Positions 36,897-62,539 of a DNA stretch of 64,000 bases are shown here, in pieces; position 1 is the first letter of the stretch; each line of letters opens with the position of its first letter. Where the stretch lies: assembly GCF_005048225.1 (NCBI RefSeq), contig NZ_SUNI01000001.1:310001-374000 (forward strand). Reading direction: 5' to 3'. The notes below the pieces were generated by a model. That model ran no database searches and had not been told where the DNA came from. It worked only from the letters and a program-made list of their open reading frames with translations. This stretch comes from Paracoccus gahaiensis (GTDB lineage: Bacteria > Pseudomonadota > Alphaproteobacteria > Rhodobacterales > Rhodobacteraceae). A program made the position numbers and the translations under genes.

Positions 36897-37640
36897 ATGG
36901 ATTGTTGCGCGACCCCCTCGGCCTGCACGGGCCCCTGCCCGACCCTTCCGCCGCCCCGCAGCTTCTGGCAGCGGATGGCCGACCGTGTCGTGGCCTTCCT
37001 GTGGACGAACCACCCCGCGACGCCGCCCGAACGCTCGGTCGCCTTCACGATCGCGGTGATCGCGCTTGGCGCCAAGCTGGCCAAGGCCGACGGCACCGTC
37101 GCCCGGTCCGAGGTGGCGGCCTTTCGCCGCGTCTTCATCATTCCCCGGTCCGAGGAGAAGAACGCCGCCCGGGTCTTCGATCTGGCGCGGCAGGATGTGG
37201 CGGGCTTCGATGCCTGGGCGCGCAAGATGGCCTCGATGTTCACCCCCGGCGATCCGGTGCTGCTGGACGTGATCGAGGGGCTGTTCGTCATCGCCGTCGC
37301 CGACGGTCCCCTGCACGAGACCGAGATCGCCTTTCTCGATGAGGTCGGACGCATCTTCGGCCTGGCCCCCGCCCAGATCGACGCGATCCGGCGCCGCCAT
37401 GACAGCGGTGCGGGCTGCCCCCCCTGCGAGGTGCTGGGCGTGGCTCCCGACACGCCGCTGCCCGAGGTCAAGCGCCGCTGGCGTCAGCTTCTGCAGGAGA
37501 ATCACCCCGACAAGGCCATCGGACGCGGGTTGCCGCCCGAGGCGATCCGTCTGGCCGAGGCCCGCACACGCCGCCTGAACGAGGCTTGGGACAGCTATCG
37601 CACGCGCGATCGCCCGGCCCCGCAGATGGGCGCCGCCTGA
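36897..37640 (+). CDS. DjlA-like TerB/J-domain protein
   Basis: A 247-aa protein with a TerB-like helical domain at about residues 45-165 (SVAFTIAVIALGAKLAKADG, FVIAVADGPLHETEIAFL) and a C-terminal J-domain at about 178-240 with the HPD tripeptide (ENHPDKA). It probably recruits DnaK. No membrane helix is clear, unlike enteric DjlA. The first 15 residues carry four Cys (DCC, SAC, GPC) and there is no good ribosome binding site, so the true start may be further in, for example Met27 at 36975. Confidence 0.8.
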   Translation: MDCCATPSACTGPCPTLPPPRSFWQRMADRVVAFLWTNHPATPPERSVAFTIAVIALGAKLAKADGTVARSEVAAFRRVFIIPRSEEKNAARVFDLARQDVAGFDAWARKMASMFTPGDPVLLDVIEGLFVIAVADGPLHETEIAFLDEVGRIFGLAPAQIDAIRRRHDSGAGCPPCEVLGVAPDTPLPEVKRRWRQLLQENHPDKAIGRGLPPEAIRLAEARTRRLNEAWDSYRTRDRPAPQMGAA

Positions 37641-37678: not shown

Positions 37679-38113
37679 ATGAGACATGCAATCGCCCCCC
37701 TTGCCCTCGCTCTGGCGCTGACCTTCGGTCCCGCGCAGGCGCAGGACGGCCCCGCGCCCGCTCCCGAGGAGCCCGGCCTGTTCGATCGCAGCCTCGACGG
37801 CCTCTTCGGGCAGTTCTTTGGCAAGGAGCCTGCGCCAGACGCTGAGGGCCCGACCAATGATCCGACCGGCGATCTGGCCGGGGCGCTTCGCCGGATGGGG
37901 CCGGCGCTGCGAGATCTGGCGACGCAGGTCGACGACATCCGCAACTATCAGGCGCCCGAGCGTCTGCCCAATGGCGACATCCTGATCCGGCGCCGCGAGG
38001 ACGCCCCGCCTCCGCCTCCTCTGGGCGAGACGCTGCGCCCCGACCCCGAGGCCGGCCCGGACGGCGCCGATCCCGACCTGACCGATCCCGACCAGCCGCA
38101 GATCGCGCTCTAG
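37679..38113 (+). CDS. Small secreted protein of unknown function
   Basis: 144 aa with a clear signal peptide (MRHAIAPLALALALTFG, cut near AQAQ). The mature part is acidic and Pro-rich, with one ordered-looking segment (GPALRDLATQVDDIRNYQAPERLPNGDILI) and a tail of Pro and Asp repeats. I recognise no enzymatic motif; similar proteins occur across Rhodobacterales, sometimes mislabelled as ATPases. Its TAG stop is shared with the convergent exonuclease gene through CTAG. Confidence 0.7.
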   Translation: MRHAIAPLALALALTFGPAQAQDGPAPAPEEPGLFDRSLDGLFGQFFGKEPAPDAEGPTNDPTGDLAGALRRMGPALRDLATQVDDIRNYQAPERLPNGDILIRRREDAPPPPPLGETLRPDPEAGPDGADPDLTDPDQPQIAL

Positions 38114-40065
38114 TCGGGCAGGTTCGCGTCGGCGATCAGGCTACGATGGCGCCGGGCCTCGGCCCAGGCCTCCTCGAAGCGGGTGATGCCCTTGGCCTCC
38201 AGCGCCGGGATCAGCTTGAGGAAGGCCTCGGCCGTGGCGACGGTGTCGCCCATCGCGGTGTGGCGGGCCTCGGGCGGGATCTCGATGCCAAGCCGTTCCG
38301 TCAGCGCATCCAGCGTATGGACCGCCGACTGCCCCCAGACCATCGCGGACAGGGCGACCGTGTCCAGCACCCGGTTGTCGAAATGCGCGCCCGTCTGCGC
38401 ACGGGCCCGGCGCAGGAAGCCCATGTCGAAGGGCGCGTTATGGGCGATCAGCACGCTGTCGTCGCAGAAATGCCGGAAGGCCGTCAGCGCCGCCGTCAGG
38501 TCGGGGGCATCCGCGACCATCGCGTCGGTGATGTGGTGGATCGCGGTCGAGCCGGGAGGGATCGGGCGGCCGGGATTGACCAGCGTGTCGAAGCGTTCCC
38601 CCGTCAGCCGGCCCCGTGCCAGCCGCAGCCCGGCGATCTGCACGATGGCATCGTGGTCGTTCAATCCCGTTGTCTCGGTGTCGAAGACCACGCAGGTCAG
38701 GTCCGCCAGCCGCGACGAGGCCACGCCCCGCGCCGCCAGCGCGAAATCATAGGTCACGCCGGACCCGTCAACGGTCCCCTCGGCCAGGGGCAGCGGCATG
38801 ACCAGCGCGGCGGCGGGGCCCGACGCCTCGGGCCAGATGCCGGTGCCGTGGCGGGCGAGGATCTCGGTGCCCGTCAGGTCGGGCTGGCCGGGATCGGGGG
38901 CATCGGTCAGCCAGGCCTCCAGCAGGTCGATGGGCACGGGGGCGCCGGACCATTCCAGCGCCAGCCGCATCTGATCGGCCTGATCGGGATGGATGGCCAG
39001 CACCGGCGCATGGCCCAGATCGCGCAGCCGCGCGTCCAGCGCCAGCAGCAGTGCGTTCAGCCCCGCCGCCTCGGCGCGGAAGGCCAGGCGCGGCAGGGGA
39101 CCGGCGGGGGTCAGCCCGGCGGCCAGCTCGTCCAGGCCCGCCATCTGGGCCGGCGCGTCGCTGGCCAGGATCTGCGACAGGGTGCGGGTGGTCGAAGCCA
39201 GGCCCTGCCCCTCGGCCCGGATCGCCAGCGCCAGCGCGGGCGGGATCGGGCCGTCCAGCGCGTCCAGCATCGGCACAAGCGTCGCGGCATGGCGGCGCAG
39301 CGCCTCCAGCGTGGCGCGCGGCGCGGGGCGGTCCACGGCGGCGTCGCGCAGAATCAGAAGCAGGCCCCCCTCGCCCATGCTGTCGATGGGGCGCAGCCGT
39401 CCCGACAGGCGCAACCCCGCTGCCGTCAGGCAGGTCAGGTCGGTCGCCCCTGCCCCCGCCGCCAGCCGCACCCGTGCGGCGCGCAGCGCGCCGGGGGTCA
39501 GCAGGCGGTCCAGCATCCCGTCCAGCGCCAGCCCCGGCAACAGCCGCGCCGCGCTGGCGTTGTAGAAAACCACCCGCCCCCGTGCATCGGCCATGACCGC
39601 GCCCGACCCGAAATCGGCCAGGATCGATTCGAGGCTGGCCTTCTCGCGCGCCAGTTCCGCTGCATGGGCCTCAAGCGCAGCGTCCAGCGCCTCATCCGAG
39701 CGCTGCCGGGCCAGTGCCGCATCCCGCGCGGCGGGGCCCAGATCGGCCAGATAGCGGGACTGCGCCAGATCGGGCACCCGCCCAGTGCGCAGCGCGCCGG
39801 CCAGCGCCTCGATGGGCCGGGCGATGTTCTGGTCGAACAGGTACCACAGCCCGGTCACGATGCCGGTCAGCCCGAAGCCCGCCAGCAGCGCGCCCTGGAT
39901 CGCGGCATCCGTCCCGCCCGACCCCGCGCGCCACAGCGCCAGCCCCGCCAGCGCCAGCGCCGCGCCAAGCGAGCCCAGAAACATCAGCAGGATGCGCACC
40001 CGCAGCGAGCCGCGGACCGCCCCGCCCGGTGCGGGCAGTCCGGCATCCGGGGCCGGGGCCGTCAT
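38110..40065 (-). CDS. Membrane PAS protein fused to a DnaQ-family 3'-5' exonuclease
   Basis: 651 aa in three parts. Two membrane helices lie at about 23-45 and 56-77. A HAMP-like and helical linker then leads to a PAS-like domain (about 143-190) and a long region with histidine-kinase flavour but no convincing catalytic His or ATP site. The last 190 residues are a complete DEDDh exonuclease: D462-x-E464 (DTETTGL), HNAPFD (Asp547), and H602-x4-D607. It would sit at the inner membrane with the nuclease in the cytosol. It overlaps the receiver gene by 4 bases and ends the acetate block. Exonuclease substrate and signal are unknown. Confidence 0.85.
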   Translation of the reverse strand: MTAPAPDAGLPAPGGAVRGSLRVRILLMFLGSLGAALALAGLALWRAGSGGTDAAIQGALLAGFGLTGIVTGLWYLFDQNIARPIEALAGALRTGRVPDLAQSRYLADLGPAARDAALARQRSDEALDAALEAHAAELAREKASLESILADFGSGAVMADARGRVVFYNASAARLLPGLALDGMLDRLLTPGALRAARVRLAAGAGATDLTCLTAAGLRLSGRLRPIDSMGEGGLLLILRDAAVDRPAPRATLEALRRHAATLVPMLDALDGPIPPALALAIRAEGQGLASTTRTLSQILASDAPAQMAGLDELAAGLTPAGPLPRLAFRAEAAGLNALLLALDARLRDLGHAPVLAIHPDQADQMRLALEWSGAPVPIDLLEAWLTDAPDPGQPDLTGTEILARHGTGIWPEASGPAAALVMPLPLAEGTVDGSGVTYDFALAARGVASSRLADLTCVVFDTETTGLNDHDAIVQIAGLRLARGRLTGERFDTLVNPGRPIPPGSTAIHHITDAMVADAPDLTAALTAFRHFCDDSVLIAHNAPFDMGFLRRARAQTGAHFDNRVLDTVALSAMVWGQSAVHTLDALTERLGIEIPPEARHTAMGDTVATAEAFLKLIPALEAKGITRFEEAWAEARRHRSLIADANLPD

Positions 40066-40442
40066 GGCGCGGCGGGACCCGGCGCCAGCAGCCGCGCCAT
40101 CTCGGCGCGCAGCTCGGCCAGTTCGAAGGGCTTGGCGATGAAGCCGTCGGCACCAAGGGCCAGGCCCTTGCGACGCTCCACCACCGAGCCGCGCGCCGTC
40201 ATCATCAGCACCCGCACATCCGCCAAGGCCGGATCGGCCCGCACGTCCTGCACGATCTGATAGCCCGAGACCTCGGGCAGCATCACGTCCAGCAGCACCA
40301 GATCGGGATGCATCTGCCGGATGCGGTCCACCGCGCCCTTGCCGGTGGCGATGCGGTCGTGGCGGTGGCCGTCGCGGGTCAGCAGGAAATCCAGCGCGGT
40401 GGCGATGTTGTCCTCGTCCTCGACGATCAGGATGTCAGCCAT
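40062..40442 (-). CDS. Single-domain response regulator (CheY-like receiver)
   Basis: 126 aa, a receiver domain only: acidic pocket E8-D9-E10-D11, phospho-acceptor D52 (LVLLDVMLPE), T82 and K104 (FIAKPFE). No output domain follows, so it must act by protein contact. The ATG overlaps the two-helix membrane protein by 8 bases, and the stop overlaps the PAS-exonuclease gene by 4 bases. The latter is the natural candidate partner, as sensor or target. Confidence 0.92.
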   Translation of the reverse strand: MADILIVEDEDNIATALDFLLTRDGHRHDRIATGKGAVDRIRQMHPDLVLLDVMLPEVSGYQIVQDVRADPALADVRVLMMTARGSVVERRKGLALGADGFIAKPFELAELRAEMARLLAPGPAAP

Positions 40443-40938
40443 CGGTGGGCTCCTTCGGGCAGACGGCGGCGAAGGCGGCATCGTCGCCCGCAGGCGTCCA
40501 GTCGCCGCGCGCGGGCCGGATGCGGTCGCCCGCGCAGTCGAAATCCTGCGGGACGATGATGGTCTGGCCGCGCCGCTCGACCAGCATGATCGGCGCGCTG
40601 CGGGTGCCGCCCTCGGCCCCGGTGATCTGGGCGGGATCGACGGCGGCAAAGCGCACCTCGACCGGGGCCAGATAGGTCCAGGGCGCCCAGGGCTGGCTGT
40701 CGCGGCCGACGACCAGCACCTCGGAGCCCTGCGGAAGGGTCGCCACGGCGCGACCGTACCACGCATAGTCGTTCCACACCGAATAGGCGACCATCGCCAG
40801 CCCGATCCCTCCGGTCAGCAGCCAGGGTGGCGGGTTCAGCCCCGCCTTGCGCGCCGCATGCATCCCCGCATACAGCACCGCCGCCGCGCCGACCGCGACC
40901 GCGATCACCCCCAGCAGATCCGCACCCATCCCCGTCAT
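40435..40938 (-). CDS. Two-helix membrane protein of unknown function
   Basis: 167 aa with two N-terminal hydrophobic helices (GVIAVAVGAAAVLYAGM and WLLTGGIGLAMVAYSVW) and a C-terminal soluble domain that is probably periplasmic, with two Cys (DFDCAGD and AAVCPKE). I recognise no family. It is locked between the DUF294 gene (4-base overlap) and the receiver gene (8-base overlap), so it belongs to the acetate-linked signalling unit, perhaps as a sensor or anchor. Confidence 0.72.
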   Translation of the reverse strand: MTGMGADLLGVIAVAVGAAAVLYAGMHAARKAGLNPPPWLLTGGIGLAMVAYSVWNDYAWYGRAVATLPQGSEVLVVGRDSQPWAPWTYLAPVEVRFAAVDPAQITGAEGGTRSAPIMLVERRGQTIIVPQDFDCAGDRIRPARGDWTPAGDDAAFAAVCPKEPTDG

Positions 40939-42746
40939 CCCAGCATCCCCTTGCCATGTCCCACCGCCGATTGCATGCCGCGCACCACCACGAAGGCGTC
41001 GCGCAGATGACTGCGTTCGAAATCCGACAGATCCGCCGGCGAGAGGTAATTGTCGGGCTTGCGCCCCGCGCGCACCAGATGCGCCTGGTTTTCCAGACGC
41101 ACGGTCTGGATCATGTCATAGGCCGCGATCAGGTCCCGCGCACCCGTCCCCGAGATGACGCCCCGCGCCTCGGCATCCTCCAGCCGGGCGCGGGTGTTGA
41201 CCGATCCGATGCGGCCCTGCAGCGCATAGCAGCGGCCCAGATCGGTGACCGGCACGACGCCATTGTGCTTCATGTCGATATGATGGCGATGCTCGCCCGA
41301 GCGGATCGTGGCGAAGCCGCCGATCAGCCCCAGGGGCGGGCGGTGCTTGAGCGAATTGGCGATCATATGCGCCACGAAGATCGAGTTCTTCGACGCCGCC
41401 TCCAGCGTCTCGCGCTGCAGGCTGTCCAGCAGCGCGCCCTCGCCGCCGATGGCGCGCAGGTCGAACATGACCGAGGCCAGCATCTGCGCTTCGGGGCTGG
41501 GATGGGCGATCCAGTCGCGGAAATAGCCCCGCCAGACCGGGGCCGGCTGGCGCCAGCGCGGGTTGCTGGCCATCATGTCGCCCGGGCAATGCACATAGCC
41601 GCAGGCATCCAGCCCGTCGCAGACGCGCGCCGCCAGGTCGCGGAACCACGGATGGGCGGGATCGGCGCCGGGTTCCAGAATCAGGCAGTTGTCCTGATCG
41701 CTGACGCCGGTCTGTTCCTGCCGGCCCTGGCTGCCACAGGCCGCCCACAGCCACAGCGCGGGGGCCGGCCCCAGATCGGCCACGGCCAGATCCAGCAGCC
41801 GGCGGGTGACCGCATCGGCGATGTCGGTGATCATCCGGGTGACGATCTCGTGGCGCTGGCGCGCCTGGACCAGTTGCAGCAACAGCTCGGGGATGCGGGC
41901 GGTCACGCGCGCCATGCCTTCGGTGTCGCGCGCCAGCGCCACCTCGCGGATCAGCCCGGCCGCCGAGATCGCCTGCACCCGGGTCAGGTCGGTCTGGCTG
42001 ATCATGCCGGTGAAGCGGCCATCCTCGACCACCGGCAGGTGGCTGATCTTGCGCTCCAGCATGATGTTCAGCACGTCATAGCCAAGCGCGGTCGGCGCCA
42101 GCGTCACCGGGTCGGGCGTCATCACCTGGCTTACCGGCTGGCGCATGTCGCGCCCTTCGGCGACGACACGGTTGGACATGTCGCGGATGGTGACCAGACC
42201 GATCAGGCGCCCGCCCTCGGTCACGCCGAGGCTGCTGATGCGGGCCTCGCGCATCATCTGGGCGGCGGTGATGATCGGCGTCTCGGGCGGGCAGCTGACC
42301 GGCTTGCCCGACAGCAGCTCGCCCACCTTCAGCCGCGCCACGTCGCTGCCGCGATCCACCGGCCCCCGGCCCCGGTCGAAGAAGCGCGCGATGGCGCGGT
42401 GTTCCGAGATCAGGCGGATCACCTCGGCCCGGGGCAGCATCAGGATCTGGGCCTCGTCCAGCGCCCGGGCCGAGGTCACCGCGACCCCGTCGCGCAGAAG
42501 CCCGCGCTCGCCGAAGGAATTGCGCGGCCCCAGCTGCGAGACGCTGTCGCCGTTGCGGTCGGTGACCGCCACATGGCCGGTCTCGATCAGGTAGAGGCCG
42601 GGCAGCCGGTCGCCGAAGTCATAGACCGGATCGCCGGCGGCAAAGCGCCTGCGGCTGAAGGAACCGGCGACCCGCGCCAGCTCGTCCCGCTTCAGGCAGT
42701 CATAGGGATGCACGGTGGAGATGAACTCTGCAGTGCGATCGGACAT
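40935..42746 (-). CDS. cNMP-binding/CBS/DUF294 nucleotidyltransferase-like protein
   Basis: A 603-aa cytosolic protein. An N-terminal cyclic-nucleotide-binding domain covers about 10-125 (GDPVYDFGDRLPGLYLIETG), a CBS pair about 150-270 (ISSLGVTEGGRLIGLVT, VMTPDPVTLAP, ISHLPVVEDGRFTGMIS), a DUF294 nucleotidyltransferase-like domain about 300-440 with GSQGRQEQTGVSDQDN, and a DUF294 C-terminal domain. This architecture (GlnD-like, PF03445/PF10335) is repeatedly found beside actP-type acetate permeases. It may sense nucleotide status and modify a partner. Overlaps its downstream neighbour by 4 bases. Confidence 0.9.
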   Translation of the reverse strand: MSDRTAEFISTVHPYDCLKRDELARVAGSFSRRRFAAGDPVYDFGDRLPGLYLIETGHVAVTDRNGDSVSQLGPRNSFGERGLLRDGVAVTSARALDEAQILMLPRAEVIRLISEHRAIARFFDRGRGPVDRGSDVARLKVGELLSGKPVSCPPETPIITAAQMMREARISSLGVTEGGRLIGLVTIRDMSNRVVAEGRDMRQPVSQVMTPDPVTLAPTALGYDVLNIMLERKISHLPVVEDGRFTGMISQTDLTRVQAISAAGLIREVALARDTEGMARVTARIPELLLQLVQARQRHEIVTRMITDIADAVTRRLLDLAVADLGPAPALWLWAACGSQGRQEQTGVSDQDNCLILEPGADPAHPWFRDLAARVCDGLDACGYVHCPGDMMASNPRWRQPAPVWRGYFRDWIAHPSPEAQMLASVMFDLRAIGGEGALLDSLQRETLEAASKNSIFVAHMIANSLKHRPPLGLIGGFATIRSGEHRHHIDMKHNGVVPVTDLGRCYALQGRIGSVNTRARLEDAEARGVISGTGARDLIAAYDMIQTVRLENQAHLVRAGRKPDNYLSPADLSDFERSHLRDAFVVVRGMQSAVGHGKGMLG

Positions 42747-44634: not shown

Positions 44635-44892
44635 TCACTCGTCCACGCCGTGTTCGGCATCCAGCTTGTTCATGCGCCAAGCGTAGAAGAAGATCAGCAC
44701 GATGAAGCACAGGATCGATCCCTGCTGGGCGAACCAGAAGCCCAGATCCGTCCCGCCCACCGGGATCGACGAAATCAGCGGCCGCAGGATGATGCCGAAG
44801 CCATAGGACACCAGCGCCCAGATCGCGATGCTCACGTAGATGATGCGAAGATTTGCCTGCCAATAGGCATTCGAAGATTGTCTGTCACTCAT
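44635..44892 (-). CDS. DUF4212 small membrane subunit of the symporter
   Basis: An 85-aa protein with two helices (IIYVSIAIWALVSYGFGIIL and ILCFIVLIFFYAWRMNKLD) and the N-terminal NAYWQANLRII motif of DUF4212. The family always accompanies SSS symporters of this type and may be an accessory subunit. The start at 44892 follows GGGAGGGAC; longer frames run into a GC-rich leader. It lies between acs and actP. Confidence 0.9.
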   Translation of the reverse strand: MSDRQSSNAYWQANLRIIYVSIAIWALVSYGFGIILRPLISSIPVGGTDLGFWFAQQGSILCFIVLIFFYAWRMNKLDAEHGVDE

Positions 44893-44981
44893 GTCCTTGG
44901 GTCCCTCCCTGTTCAGACATCTGGTCGATCCGCCTTGTGGTGGTCCGCGCCCGCCCCGGCGGAGGGTCGGGCGACATTGCG

Positions 44982-45006
44982 GGGGCCCCGAAGAAGGCCG
45001 GGCCCC
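44982..45006 (-). other. GC hairpin between acs and DUF4212-actP
   Basis: GGGGCCC (44982-44988) can pair with GGGCCCC (45000-45006) across an 11-base loop, 10 bases after the acs stop. No T-run follows on the minus strand, so it may partly stop or protect the acs transcript rather than end it. Confidence 0.35.
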
Positions 45007-45015
45007 GGCCAAGCG

Positions 45016-46971
<1,956 letters not shown>

Positions 46972-47075
46972 GACATCCCCCTCCGTCTCGGCCATGCGCC
47001 AGGCCCGGGGCGGGTTCGGTTGACCAGAACCGCGCGCCGGGCTGCGTTGGGAAGGATGTTAATCACAGTCGGGAC

Positions 47076-58644: not shown

Positions 58645-61600
58645 CGAAATCTCTCCTTGCAAAGGGGCCGCGCCCGAAGGTCTGCGACAATTGGGCCACG
58701 GCGACCGTGATCGGGCCGGGCGGCAGCGACGCCCAGAGGGGTTCGGGCACGCTCCAGTCGGGGCTCGAGGTCTGCACCTCGGCAAGAGTCGCGCCGTCGC
58801 GGATCAGGCGCAGCAGATAGCGTTCGCTCTCCTCGCCCAGGGGAATGTCGGGACCCTCCCAGCCATCCCCCTCGATCCGGCTGCGCCGCACCCAGGTGAC
58901 CTGGCGCCCCTCCATCCGCAGATGGCAGGGTGCATAGGGCCGCAGCCCGATCCCCTGGGCCACGGTCGTCAGGCTGCGATAGCTGGCATCGTCGGGCGCG
59001 CGCAGTGCCGGGCCGACGCGCCAGAACCGCTCCCGCCCCCGGGCCGAGGGCGGCAGGTCCAGCTGCCGGGGCGCGGCATCCAGCAGCACGACCAGACTGC
59101 CCGCGGGCCAGACGGGCGGCATGACCCCATCCGTCCCCGCCTGACCGCGCAGGCGGTGGCTGATCTCCCAGAGATTGGGGGCCACCAGATCGGCGCGGGC
59201 GAACTGCATCACCTCCCAGCCCTCCAGGCTGCCATCGCCGATGGCCAGCGCATTGGCGCCCGACAGCAGCGCGCGCTCGGTCACGGATCGCAGCGGATCG
59301 CCGACCAGCCGCAGCCGCAGGGGCGCACCCCGGTCGATCACCCCGGGCCGGGCGCGGGCCAGCGGGGTCAGCGTCCGCCCGATCAGCGCCCGGCGCTGCA
59401 ACAGGGTGTTCAGCTCGAACCCGCCCTCGGGTTCGGCCGAGCCATAGGCCGCGACCGAGCCCGGCCAGGGATGGGCCGCGACCGCCAGCCAAGGGGCGTG
59501 CGGCACCTCGTCGCCGCGCAGCAGCGGCAGGTCCAGCATCACCGGGAAGACCGGCATCGGTGGCGCATAGCGGCGCATCCCGCCCTGCTCCTGAAAGCTC
59601 AGCCGCGGGGTGTAGAGGCCGGGATCGACCCGTACCGCGTCGATGGTGATGGCGCCCGCCCGCTCGACCCGGTCGATGCGCCAGCGGCGGCTGTCCTGCC
59701 CCGGCATCCGGCTGGTGATCACATCGCCCGGCCCCAGATCGGCGCGCGAGGGCGGCAGGGCGAAGCGCGCCGTGTCCCGGGCCAGCTCGGCCTCGGCGAT
59801 CCAGCGATCGGCGATGGCACGACCCTCGGCGCGCGTCAGCACCATCGCGAACTCGCTCTCGGACACGGCGCGGCGGTCGGCATCGGCCAAGCTCGCCTCG
59901 GCGGTGGCCACCCCGTAATCGCCGCCTGCCGCCACATGGCTCAGCCGCAGCTGGCCCGGCTGCGTGGCCTCGACCTGCCGCACCGTCTCGAAGCCGGTGA
60001 CCTCGTCGGCCAGCGCCAGATCCTCGGGCCCGATCTCGGCCAGGGCCAGCCCGTCGCGCATGACAAAGCGCAGCATGCCGTCCCGCTCGACCGCATCGAA
60101 GCCATGAGCCAGCATCAGCGGCTGCAGCGCCGCCCGGGCCGATTCGGACCCCTGCAGCGCATAGCCGCGGACCACCCCGGACAAGCCCGACACGTCCACA
60201 CGCTCAAGCCCCGCCGCCCGGCAGATGTCGCCGACCACCGCACGCAATGTCACCGCGCCCGCCCGTCCGTTCAGCCAATGCCCGCGCTCCCAGGCCGGGC
60301 CGTCCGACCACAGATCCTCGCGCCCCGGAAAGGCCGGGTAGGGCCGCGCATCCCAGCACCAGACATGCGCGCGGTCCAGATCCAACATCCGCAGACCCTG
60401 CGCACTGACCGGGTTGTTGTCCGGATCGCGCCAATGCGCCATCACCGCCTTGACATAGGCGGCCTGCAGCCCGTCATTGCGCGTGCCGTTCGAATAATAA
60501 GGCAGCATGCTTTCCGAGGACAGCGCGTCCAGGAACTTGTTGGGCTGGTTGGTCGCCTTGTCCAGCGCTGCACAGCCGAACTCGGTGAACCAGATCGGCT
60601 TGGATTCGGGCACCCATGCGGTTGCCTGCGCCTGCCGCACGCCGCCGGGGCGGTCGTAATGCAGGTTCTGCCACCAGCTTTTCAGATCCTTGTAGCGCCA
60701 GACCCAGGCCTCGTCATAGGTCCCGTCGGTGATCGGCGTGCGGATCTGCGCATCGCGGTCGGCCTCGCTGGCATAGAACCAGTCGAACCCCTCGCCCCCC
60801 GCCACATTGGCGCGTAGATAATCGATATTGTCGATCCGCCCCCAGGACGCGTCCAGATGGTCGTCGCCGTCACGCCAGTCCGACAGCGGCATGTAATTGT
60901 CGATGCCGATGAAATCGATGTTCGGGTCCGCCCAGAGCGGGTCGAGGTGGAAGAACAGCTGCCCCTCGCCCGGATGATGCCCGAAATATTCCGACCAGTC
61001 GGCGGCATAGCCGATCTTGACCCCCGGCCCCAGGATCGACCGCACATCCTCCGCCAGCTGGCGCAGGGCGGCCACGGCCGGATAGCTGTTCTGCGGCCCC
61101 CGGATCCGGGTCATCGCGACCATCTCGGACCCGATCAGGAAGGCGTCGCAGCCGCCTGCCGCCGCGCAGAGATGCGCGTAATGCAGGATGAAGCGGCGAT
61201 AGGACCATTCCTCGGGCCCGGCATAGCTGACCTGGTCGCCGCTGCGGATGAAATGCCCGGGCTCGGCGGTGCCGAAGAACGCCGCGACCTGCTGGACCGC
61301 CGCCTCCGTCCCATCCGTCGTCCCCGGGCGCCCCGGCGCCACGCTGGTGGTGATGCGCCCACGCCAGGGCAGCGCCGGCTGTTCCTCGGCCCCATAGGGA
61401 TCGGGCAGCCCGTTGCCCGCCATCTGCTCCATCAGGATGAACGGATAGAAGATCGCCCTCCGCCCCGAGGACGCCAGCGCCCGCAGGCCCTCGATCACCG
61501 ACTGGTCCGAGGGGGTGCCGCCATAGATCGGGCGTCCCTCCTGCCGGGCGACCTCGACGGCCCCGGCACGGGTGATGCCGCCCGCGCGCCACGGCATCTC

Positions 61601-62515
61601 GGCGCCGTCGACCTCGCGGAACTCGACCTTGGGGCGGACCTCGCACTGGCCGATCCGCAGGTCGCTGCCGAACCAGGACACGACCATCGCGACCGAGCCG
61701 ACCCCGGGCAGCTCGCGCCCCAGCACGTCCAGCGAGGCGGCGAAATCCGTGCCGCCCATCGGCGTATTGGTGTTGAAGCTGCGGCTTTCGCCCAGATCGC
61801 CGCTTTCGGTCACTGCGGTCGTGGCCAGGGCATATTCGCCGGTCCCGGGGATCAGCGCCACCGCCCGCACGTCGCGCGACAGCCCGCTGCCGTCGCGGGC
61901 CGGGCAGGTCACCTCGAAGCTCAGCTGCGGCAGCCGGTTGCCCCAGGGCTCCAGGCTCAGGTTCTCCAGCACCACATAGGCGATGCCGCGATAGCTGGGC
62001 GCCGCGTCGCCCTCCAGCGCGGCGATGACCGGGTCGGGCATCTGCGCCTCCTCGCCCAGGTAGATGCGCAGGTTCAGATCCCGCTGCGCGACCTCCTCGC
62101 CATCCGCCCAGATCCGGCCGACCGACAGGACCGGCCCCTCGGCCAGGGCCAGGGCCAGCGACAGGCGATAGCTGATCTGCGTGACCTGCGTGCGCGGCGC
62201 GCCCTTGCCGCCGCCCGCATCCTCGGTGCGGGTGATCTCCTCCAGGGGCGAGGCCCAGATCACGTGGCCCGGCACCCGCATCTGGCCCCAGATGCGCGGC
62301 ACCGCCATGCCCTCGCCGGCGGTCTGGATGCGCAGCCGGTCGATGCGCCCGGTCTCGACCGCCCGCGCCCCGCCGCCCAGCAGGCGCTGGTCGATGGCCC
62401 GACCGACCAGCGCGCCTGCCGCGCGTCCCAGCACGGCGCCCGACAGGCCCAGCACGGCACCGCCGAAGCCCGCCCCAAGCGAGGCCCCCACGGCAGACAG
62501 GACAATCGTGGCCAT
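58634..62515 (-). CDS. GTA tail-tip/host-specificity protein (RcGTA g15-like)
   Basis: 1293 aa, the distal baseplate megatron protein of Rhodobacter-type gene transfer agents. A hydrophobic Gly/Ala-rich N-terminus (LSAVGASLGAGFGGAVLGLS) precedes a beta-rich domain. The TIM-barrel GTA_TIM domain lies at about 440-720 (GCDAFLIGSEM, KIGYAADWSEYFG, IWFTEFGCAALD). It is followed by tail-protein domains with VARQEG- and LPPSARG-type strands. It would contact the recipient cell surface and may cleave glycan, though that activity is inferred. It follows the NlpC/P60 gene by 24 bases and overlaps DUF2793. Confidence 0.93.
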   Translation of the reverse strand: MATIVLSAVGASLGAGFGGAVLGLSGAVLGRAAGALVGRAIDQRLLGGGARAVETGRIDRLRIQTAGEGMAVPRIWGQMRVPGHVIWASPLEEITRTEDAGGGKGAPRTQVTQISYRLSLALALAEGPVLSVGRIWADGEEVAQRDLNLRIYLGEEAQMPDPVIAALEGDAAPSYRGIAYVVLENLSLEPWGNRLPQLSFEVTCPARDGSGLSRDVRAVALIPGTGEYALATTAVTESGDLGESRSFNTNTPMGGTDFAASLDVLGRELPGVGSVAMVVSWFGSDLRIGQCEVRPKVEFREVDGAEMPWRAGGITRAGAVEVARQEGRPIYGGTPSDQSVIEGLRALASSGRRAIFYPFILMEQMAGNGLPDPYGAEEQPALPWRGRITTSVAPGRPGTTDGTEAAVQQVAAFFGTAEPGHFIRSGDQVSYAGPEEWSYRRFILHYAHLCAAAGGCDAFLIGSEMVAMTRIRGPQNSYPAVAALRQLAEDVRSILGPGVKIGYAADWSEYFGHHPGEGQLFFHLDPLWADPNIDFIGIDNYMPLSDWRDGDDHLDASWGRIDNIDYLRANVAGGEGFDWFYASEADRDAQIRTPITDGTYDEAWVWRYKDLKSWWQNLHYDRPGGVRQAQATAWVPESKPIWFTEFGCAALDKATNQPNKFLDALSSESMLPYYSNGTRNDGLQAAYVKAVMAHWRDPDNNPVSAQGLRMLDLDRAHVWCWDARPYPAFPGREDLWSDGPAWERGHWLNGRAGAVTLRAVVGDICRAAGLERVDVSGLSGVVRGYALQGSESARAALQPLMLAHGFDAVERDGMLRFVMRDGLALAEIGPEDLALADEVTGFETVRQVEATQPGQLRLSHVAAGGDYGVATAEASLADADRRAVSESEFAMVLTRAEGRAIADRWIAEAELARDTARFALPPSRADLGPGDVITSRMPGQDSRRWRIDRVERAGAITIDAVRVDPGLYTPRLSFQEQGGMRRYAPPMPVFPVMLDLPLLRGDEVPHAPWLAVAAHPWPGSVAAYGSAEPEGGFELNTLLQRRALIGRTLTPLARARPGVIDRGAPLRLRLVGDPLRSVTERALLSGANALAIGDGSLEGWEVMQFARADLVAPNLWEISHRLRGQAGTDGVMPPVWPAGSLVVLLDAAPRQLDLPPSARGRERFWRVGPALRAPDDASYRSLTTVAQGIGLRPYAPCHLRMEGRQVTWVRRSRIEGDGWEGPDIPLGEESERYLLRLIRDGATLAEVQTSSPDWSVPEPLWASLPPGPITVAVAQLSQTFGRGPFARRDFDVR

Positions 62516-62539
62516 CAGGGCCTCCTTTGTTCGAAATGC

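Follow-up and report, generated by a model that had tools for sequence, protein, structure and literature searches.

A membrane-anchored pseudo-histidine-kinase with a predicted DEDDh exonuclease output, encoded beside a lone receiver and a DUF294 nucleotidyltransferase in a monocarboxylate-uptake operon of Paracoccus gahaiensis

Pairs of genes encoding a CBS domain protein and an exonuclease have been described in the pseudomonads. In Pseudomonas putida, pp_0354 (CBS) and pp_0353 (RNase_T) form an operon, and the promoter of pp_0354 is bound by the regulator ErdR (PMC9927547, PMC8402216). As at the locus described below, a CBS protein is followed here by an exonuclease, and the pair is tied to actP/acs regulation; similarly, in Pseudomonas aeruginosa a CBS protein and exonuclease pair lies next to actP and yjcH (PMC9927547, PMC8402216). 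According to the available text of the P. putida study, deletion of pp_0353 delays growth on pyruvate and causes no defect on 20 mM acetate, while deletion of pp_0354 causes no defect on either pyruvate or 20 mM acetate, and the authors propose a role for pp_0353 in mRNA decay (PMC9927547). Because the two mutants differ on pyruvate, a simple common pathway is not favoured by these data. A mutant in a DUF294-type gene of P. fluorescens, pflu5625, is likewise reported, in the available part of that study, to lack a phenotype (PMC5715377). Within the available text of the P. putida reports, pp_0353 is described by its RNase_T match only, without mention of a membrane or pseudokinase part or of an intervening receiver, and is thus a counterpart by annotation (PMC9927547, PMC8402216).

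A second point of reference is provided by DivL and DivK, a pseudokinase and a lone receiver. In the Rhodobacterales, as far as the available text of the relevant report extends, DivK has been lost; one group has a degenerate pseudokinase portion in DivL, and the others lack that portion (PMC9430884).

The gene of interest lies at 38110..40065 on the minus strand of a stretch of Paracoccus gahaiensis DNA of 64,000 nucleotides, referred to here as the window, and encodes a protein of 651 amino acids composed of two transmembrane helices, a PAS-like region, a pseudokinase core of DHp and CA domains, and a DEDDh exonuclease. An earlier note, made from the sequence of the window, had described an open reading frame with two helices, a HAMP/PAS-like sensory part, a kinase-like middle without obvious catalytic residues, and a complete DnaQ-type exonuclease, and had proposed that a signal sensed at the membrane controls a nuclease in place of phosphorylation. 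The reading frame and its helices were recovered as described: an AlphaFold2 model of the 651-residue protein, built from alignment A1 (69 sequences, namely the window protein and 68 relatives), has a mean pLDDT of 87 and a pTM of 0.70, and places helices at residues 21-48 and 52-93, followed by a long helix at 109-150. Residues 155-241 can be read as a PAS fold in this model, and are followed by the two DHp helices (250-268 and 276-303), a CA-like domain (311-427) and the DEDDh domain (457-638). The combined HAMP/PAS assignment can be refined. A PAS match to the window protein falls below the Pfam cut-off (13.5 vs 22.6 bits), and 46 of the 69 members of A1 match PF00989 (PAS) at E values up to 1, the best being 2.3e-6; HAMP, in turn, is absent both among the five Pfam families matching the window protein and among the best 25 of the 36 families matched by the 69-member alignment. 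When the N-terminal 245 residues were compared with kinases of the same genome, the best match had an E value of 7e-4. The possibility of a chance or artefactual frame was ruled out by the conservation of alignment columns and by the 80 relatives retained from 506 matches in the genome collection. With the whole model as query, Foldseek returned PolC/DnaQ exonucleases as well as LOV-histidine kinases, ThkA and NifL (9qq6).

The DEDDh exonuclease domain is delimited by Pfam, structure matches and the model at about residues 456-640 (38146..38700, minus strand). RNase_T (PF00929) matches residues 459-615 with an E value of 1.8e-34, far above the cut-off, and is the sole Pfam family above cut-off in the window protein. 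The best 25 of 32 NCBIfam matches all fall at the nuclease domain, and among them TIGR00573, the DnaQ epsilon family, is the only one above its own cut-off (108.9 vs 71.5 bits). By sequence, the nearest solved structures are the PolC-type exonuclease 2p1j, the PolC polymerase 9qpc and E. coli epsilon; by structure comparison (VIA) of the whole model, a PolC exonuclease ranks first (Z 24.2, rmsd 2.0, 188 aligned). The sequence proximity to PolC and DnaQ exonucleases lends no specific support to a part in c-di-nucleotide breakdown (pApA/pGpG), a possibility raised in the earlier note. The residues D462, E464, D547, H602 and D607 are all present in the window protein and are invariant in 69 of 69 sequences of A1, which indicates that the nuclease is under selection for its metal site. 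The active site is thus apparently intact, as predicted for a 3'-5' exonuclease, and the complete exonuclease of the earlier note is borne out, with every metal-binding residue kept.

The region between the PAS-like part and the nuclease (residues 236-432; 38770..39360, minus strand) is, as judged from models and profiles, a DHp-CA histidine kinase fold. Modelled alone, it reached a pLDDT of 90. The best 50 Foldseek matches of this region are sensor kinases, complexes of kinases with receivers, and related proteins, for example ChpT, LvrB and phytochromes; the pseudokinase DivL (4q20) takes rank 26. In the VIA comparison the CA domain of PrrB scored best (Z 11.6, rmsd 2.9, 117 aligned), and DivL (Z 10.0, rmsd 2.8, 112 aligned) was tied with the majority of the other matches. 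In a profile comparison against 15 kinases from the same genome, the middle region of 47 sequences scored 94.8% (E 5.4e-8), and 21 relatives at a greater distance scored 97.8% (E 8.2e-13).

Despite this fold, the kinase core looks dead, the phospho-acceptor His and the ATP-binding motifs having been lost from the sequence. In the profile alignment the H-box His corresponds to Glu254, and among 117 relatives with a DHp domain His is found at this position in none, Glu in 57, Asp in 51 and other residues in nine. The G1 Asp aligns to Trp372, a position occupied by Trp in 67 of 69 sequences and followed by an invariant Gly374. The DxGxG pattern is found in one of 69 A1 rows and in none of the 21 more distant relatives, and a G2-like motif in seven of 69 and one of 21, respectively; both occur in 15 of 15 control kinases, but as these were chosen by their H-box and DxGxG patterns, the G2 figure alone serves as an independent control. 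At Arg346, which aligns to the N-box Asn of the control kinases, 41 of 69 sequences have Arg, and Asn is outside the five commonest letters. Because the H-box His is gone and the G1 and G2 motifs have been lost, an active histidine kinase was judged unlikely. The earlier note had named a functional kinase site in the middle region, or an inactive nuclease with missing metal binding, as grounds for abandoning its proposal; with the motifs of an active kinase lacking and the metal-binding residues all present, neither was found.

A variant of the kinase reading is that the protein is still active in an unconventional manner, with another residue, His259 of the Paracoccus lineage, taking the phosphate for the receiver. 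The receiver gene does adjoin this gene and its Asp is conserved, and His259 is found in 21 of 69 sequences; this residue is not at the phospho-acceptor position, however, and is Pro in 41 of 69. The reading is further opposed by the H-box position itself, which is Asp or Glu in 108 of 117 relatives and never His, by G1 and G2 motifs that are mostly absent, and by a HATPase_c scan of the same genome, whose 36 listed places all lie outside this gene and its operon. We consider such an activity very improbable.

If the core has no kinase activity of its own, the question arises as to how phosphorylation might enter the system. A candidate is encoded immediately upstream, where a lone receiver of 126 amino acids with its phospho-acceptor Asp present (40062..40442, minus strand) overlaps the start of the exonuclease gene by 4 nt (ATGA). 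Among 107 receivers, the phospho-acceptor Asp is found in all 107, the Lys in 106 and the Thr in 103. The distribution of this receiver was classified across 173 loci, reduced to 137 by collapsing identical C-terminal parts, with the window excluded, L154 omitted and the receiver of L066 assigned by hand. DHp, CA and an adjacent receiver occur together in 107 of these 137 relatives, and every locus with a receiver has DHp and CA. Eighteen relatives have neither DHp nor CA, and none of the 18 has a receiver; all lie within the window's family group and form one clade on the exonuclease tree (support 99). The remaining 12 have CA without a receiver. In seven of these (L010-L015, L134) the first DHp helix is eroded and in two (L132, L133) the RRP motif is altered, while in L117, L131 and L168 the DHp is more or less kept, yet without an adjacent receiver, which counts against a tie between the two.

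The number of independent events behind this pattern is small. On the exonuclease tree, from which L210, L212, L217 and L227 are absent (motif not matched), the no-receiver label takes six changes, at least three of them forced by starred branches, and an independent-pairs test of receiver versus DHp yields two to three pairs on starred branches (p = 1). A Fisher test gives p of about 1e-21 over 138 related rows, L078, which has a receiver, being counted as DHp-short; because the rows are related, this value is not used as proof, and the association rests on too few independent events for a formal test. Nonetheless, since the receiver overlaps the gene and goes with DHp through evolution, phosphorylation probably enters through this lone receiver partner. 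The earlier proposal of a nuclease in place of phosphorylation can accordingly be kept only in part: the kinase core looks dead and the nuclease residues are intact, but a phosphorylatable receiver overlaps the gene and accompanies its DHp. Neither the lone receiver nor the DUF294 partner figured in the earlier note. As to the source of the phosphate, the same genome contains an ackA match of 402 bits, along with two pta-like ones that do not reach the curated cut-off, so that acetyl phosphate is a possible one. The short natural form of the protein, membrane-PAS-exonuclease, retains DUF294 and M167 in 18 of 18 cases, and its existence suggests that the remaining module can do without the kinase core and the receiver.

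The module is embedded in an operon whose order is acs, DUF4212, a VC_2705-type symporter, DUF294, M167, receiver and exonuclease, all on the minus strand. Specifically, acetyl-CoA synthetase (acs; 45016..46995) is followed by a DUF4212 small symporter subunit (44635..45012, the true start probably being near 44892), a sodium/solute symporter of the VC_2705 family (TIGR03648; 42816..44660, start codon provisional), and a gene (40935..42746) encoding a cNMP-binding domain, two CBS domains, a DUF294 nucleotidyltransferase with its motif GS..SDQD present, and DUF294_C. This last gene lies two genes upstream of the receiver-exonuclease overlap, beyond M167, a conserved small protein (40435..40938) with hydrophobic stretches near its N-terminus (by eye). 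M167 overlaps its neighbours on both sides: it overlaps the receiver by 8 nt, and is itself overlapped by DUF294 by ATGA. The context of acs, DUF4212, symporter and DUF294 is common in the family, and a plasmid of Paracoccus denitrificans PD1222 carries an orthologous operon in which the genes follow one another in the same order (PDEN_RS22665 to RS22695); there, PDEN_RS22695 is annotated as a 3'-5' exonuclease.

Several lines of evidence tie the nuclease to DUF294. Firstly, of 110 loci with enough flanking sequence, 103 have a DUF294 gene in the same orientation within 4 kb upstream (71/72, 18/18 and 2/2, but only 12/18 in distant relatives, a point against the tie). Secondly, 61 genomes of the order were compared, every one of them from the family group to which the window belongs. 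Strong matches to the membrane exonuclease (E 2e-40 or better) are found in 36, and strong DUF294 matches (E 1.6e-42 or better) in exactly these 36. In the remaining 25 genomes the exonuclease matches are all DnaQ-like (E 4e-21 or worse); six of them also have a weak DUF294 match (E 3.9e-6 or worse), in frames of some 920-1030 aa taken for GlnD, and the others have none. Since both genes stand in one operon and are inherited together, the figure of 36 of 61 denotes linkage and not 36 independent events. Thirdly, in other families of the same class, five fusion proteins (L210, L216, L217, L222, L224) join RNase_T, two CBS domains, DUF294 and DUF294_C in a single chain, the exonuclease standing where the cNMP-binding domain otherwise sits. 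The nucleotidyltransferase motif and all five DEDDh residues are present in five of five fusions, and all five DEDDh residues are likewise present in three exonucleases that adjoin a DUF294 gene (L208, L209, L212). Such fusions usually mean a common pathway. As judged from these comparisons of genes and genomes, the linkage to DUF294 is the best clue to the substrate of the nuclease.

These observations bear on two further readings. In the first, the protein serves membrane-tethered RNA decay: the exonuclease would trim or degrade mRNAs, such as those of acetate/pyruvate or TCA genes, the pseudokinase would only localise it, and DUF294 would be a separate regulator in the operon. Structural neighbours do include RNase T and ERI-type exoribonucleases, and in the available text on P. 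putida mRNA decay is the proposed function of pp_0353, with a CBS neighbour that behaved differently on pyruvate (PMC9927547). Such a reading does not account for the proteins that unite exonuclease and DUF294 in a single chain, for the presence of both genes in the same 36 of 61 genomes, or for the tie of the receiver to the DHp domain; we regard it as possible though doubtful. In the second, a proofreading or repair exonuclease has been recruited to the membrane, with no relation to carbon uptake. The sequence is indeed nearest to PolC/DnaQ exonucleases, but another DnaQ-like match, in a separate frame of 239 aa, is present in the genome, and the family commonly shares the acs-DUF4212-symporter-DUF294 context. 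In addition, the exonuclease tree, which includes three of the five fusions, places the DUF294-linked nucleases on the side of the window family, apart from DnaQ-like enzymes, with weak support (79) and long-branch warnings. A role in proofreading or repair is therefore improbable.

The reading we prefer, to which we assign an even chance, is that the pseudokinase, with the receiver docked on it, gates the nuclease, and that the nuclease works together with the DUF294 nucleotidyltransferase in monocarboxylate uptake. On this view, a pseudo-histidine-kinase anchored in the membrane would act through a DEDDh 3'-5' exonuclease in the same chain. Its dead DHp-CA core would act as a dimeric relay and as a docking site for the receiver encoded upstream, by analogy with DivL and DivK; the main ground for assigning the core this role is the DivK/DivL parallel in the Rhodobacterales, together with the receiver and DHp counts. 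The receiver would be phosphorylated by another kinase or by acetyl phosphate, and its phosphorylation, jointly with the PAS domain, would set the position or activity of the nuclease by way of the pseudokinase conformation, which suggests a nuclease switch operated by protein docking instead of phosphorylation. The nuclease and the GlnD-like DUF294 protein would belong to one pathway, most simply with the former taking off and the latter adding nucleotides on a shared target, either RNA or protein, and the outcome would be a tuned uptake and activation of acetate or pyruvate. In a more specific version, the DEDDh nuclease would erase the nucleotides that DUF294 adds to a protein or RNA of monocarboxylate uptake, and its switch would be a phospho-receiver, which acetyl phosphate may charge, that docks on the dead core with its mostly conserved acidic residue in place of His; this version is unlikely and is offered as speculation. 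Should DUF294 and the exonuclease prove to be such an adder and remover couple, a concrete and testable function would be available for two families, one of which has a mutant phenotype in P. putida.

With respect to what has been described, the parts of this system are known, and the pairing of CBS/DUF294 with an exonuclease is partly known in Pseudomonas; the pseudokinase form, which is unusual, was not found described. Specifically, among the matches listed in the open-licence PMC literature, no description was found of a DnaQ/DEDDh output on a PAS or histidine-kinase-like protein, nor of a DUF294-exonuclease fusion. At least one match to 'DUF294' in that literature is, in the text available, actually DUF2946 (PMC7698356).

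Comparison with individual systems reveals both likenesses and differences. Firstly, the window nuclease has the fold and all five catalytic residues in common with DnaQ, PolC exonucleases and RNase T but, unlike these, it is joined to a membrane sensor and linked to DUF294, with no link to a polymerase. Secondly, the C-terminal domain of DUF294 proteins has been grouped, in the available part of the source, with those of GlnD and GlnE (PMC3710099); unlike in those proteins, the remover here would be a DEDDh nuclease. Thirdly, DivL and DivK resemble the window pair in combining a dead core within a PAS-containing protein with a lone receiver, and in both systems, on the available account of DivL, loss of the receiver goes with decay of the pseudokinase (PMC9430884). 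A dead DHp with an adjacent receiver, in the manner of DivL, is found in 107 of 137 loci, the partnership being deduced from adjacency, and the likeness of the window core to DivL is a fold match to 4q20 that is tied with many kinases. DivL, however, acts on the kinase CckA, whereas the window protein bears an enzyme of its own, a nuclease. Lastly, NifL, a transcription factor regulator acting by binding and a Foldseek match (9qq6), is like the window protein in using PAS and a kinase-like core as a protein switch, and differs in that the output enzyme of the window protein sits in the same chain. The usual end point of a two-component sensor is phosphotransfer to a regulator; in this protein the kinase skeleton has seemingly been turned into a control unit for a nuclease in the same chain.

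Located between the genes for the DUF294 nucleotidyltransferase and the lone receiver is a gene (window 40435-40938) encoding M167, a conserved protein for which a Pfam scan of the window returned no family above the cut-off. M167 is retained in each of the 18 short-form loci, in which the membrane-PAS-exonuclease protein occurs without the receiver. Downstream of the operon, and convergent with it, lies a gene (window 36897-37640) with Pfam matches to TerB and, below the cut-off, to DnaJ; a relative of this gene adjoins the operon in 14 of 26 loci (L056-L081).

Additional observations concern the exonuclease gene itself in other genomes. At locus L234 (record 60874-62536), on a plasmid of Paracoccus alcaliphilus, an IS5-type transposase gene interrupts the ortholog, and the upstream DUF294, M167 and receiver genes are whole by annotation. 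A divergent version, an 835-aa frame accompanied by its own receiver, is found in another genome of the window's genus (G006, locus L154). On the exonuclease tree this copy is placed with distant relatives, a position suggesting that a second subfamily was transferred. Copies are also present on MAG contigs titled Exiguobacterium and Arenimonas (L120 and L133); on the tree these are positioned among Paracoccaceae or adjoining Ciceribacter, and the contigs are probably mis-binned or mis-named.

Lastly, in other families of the same class, exonuclease, CBS and DUF294 domains are joined in one chain (L210, L216, L217, L222 and L224), and these fusions retain the active-site motifs of both enzymes.
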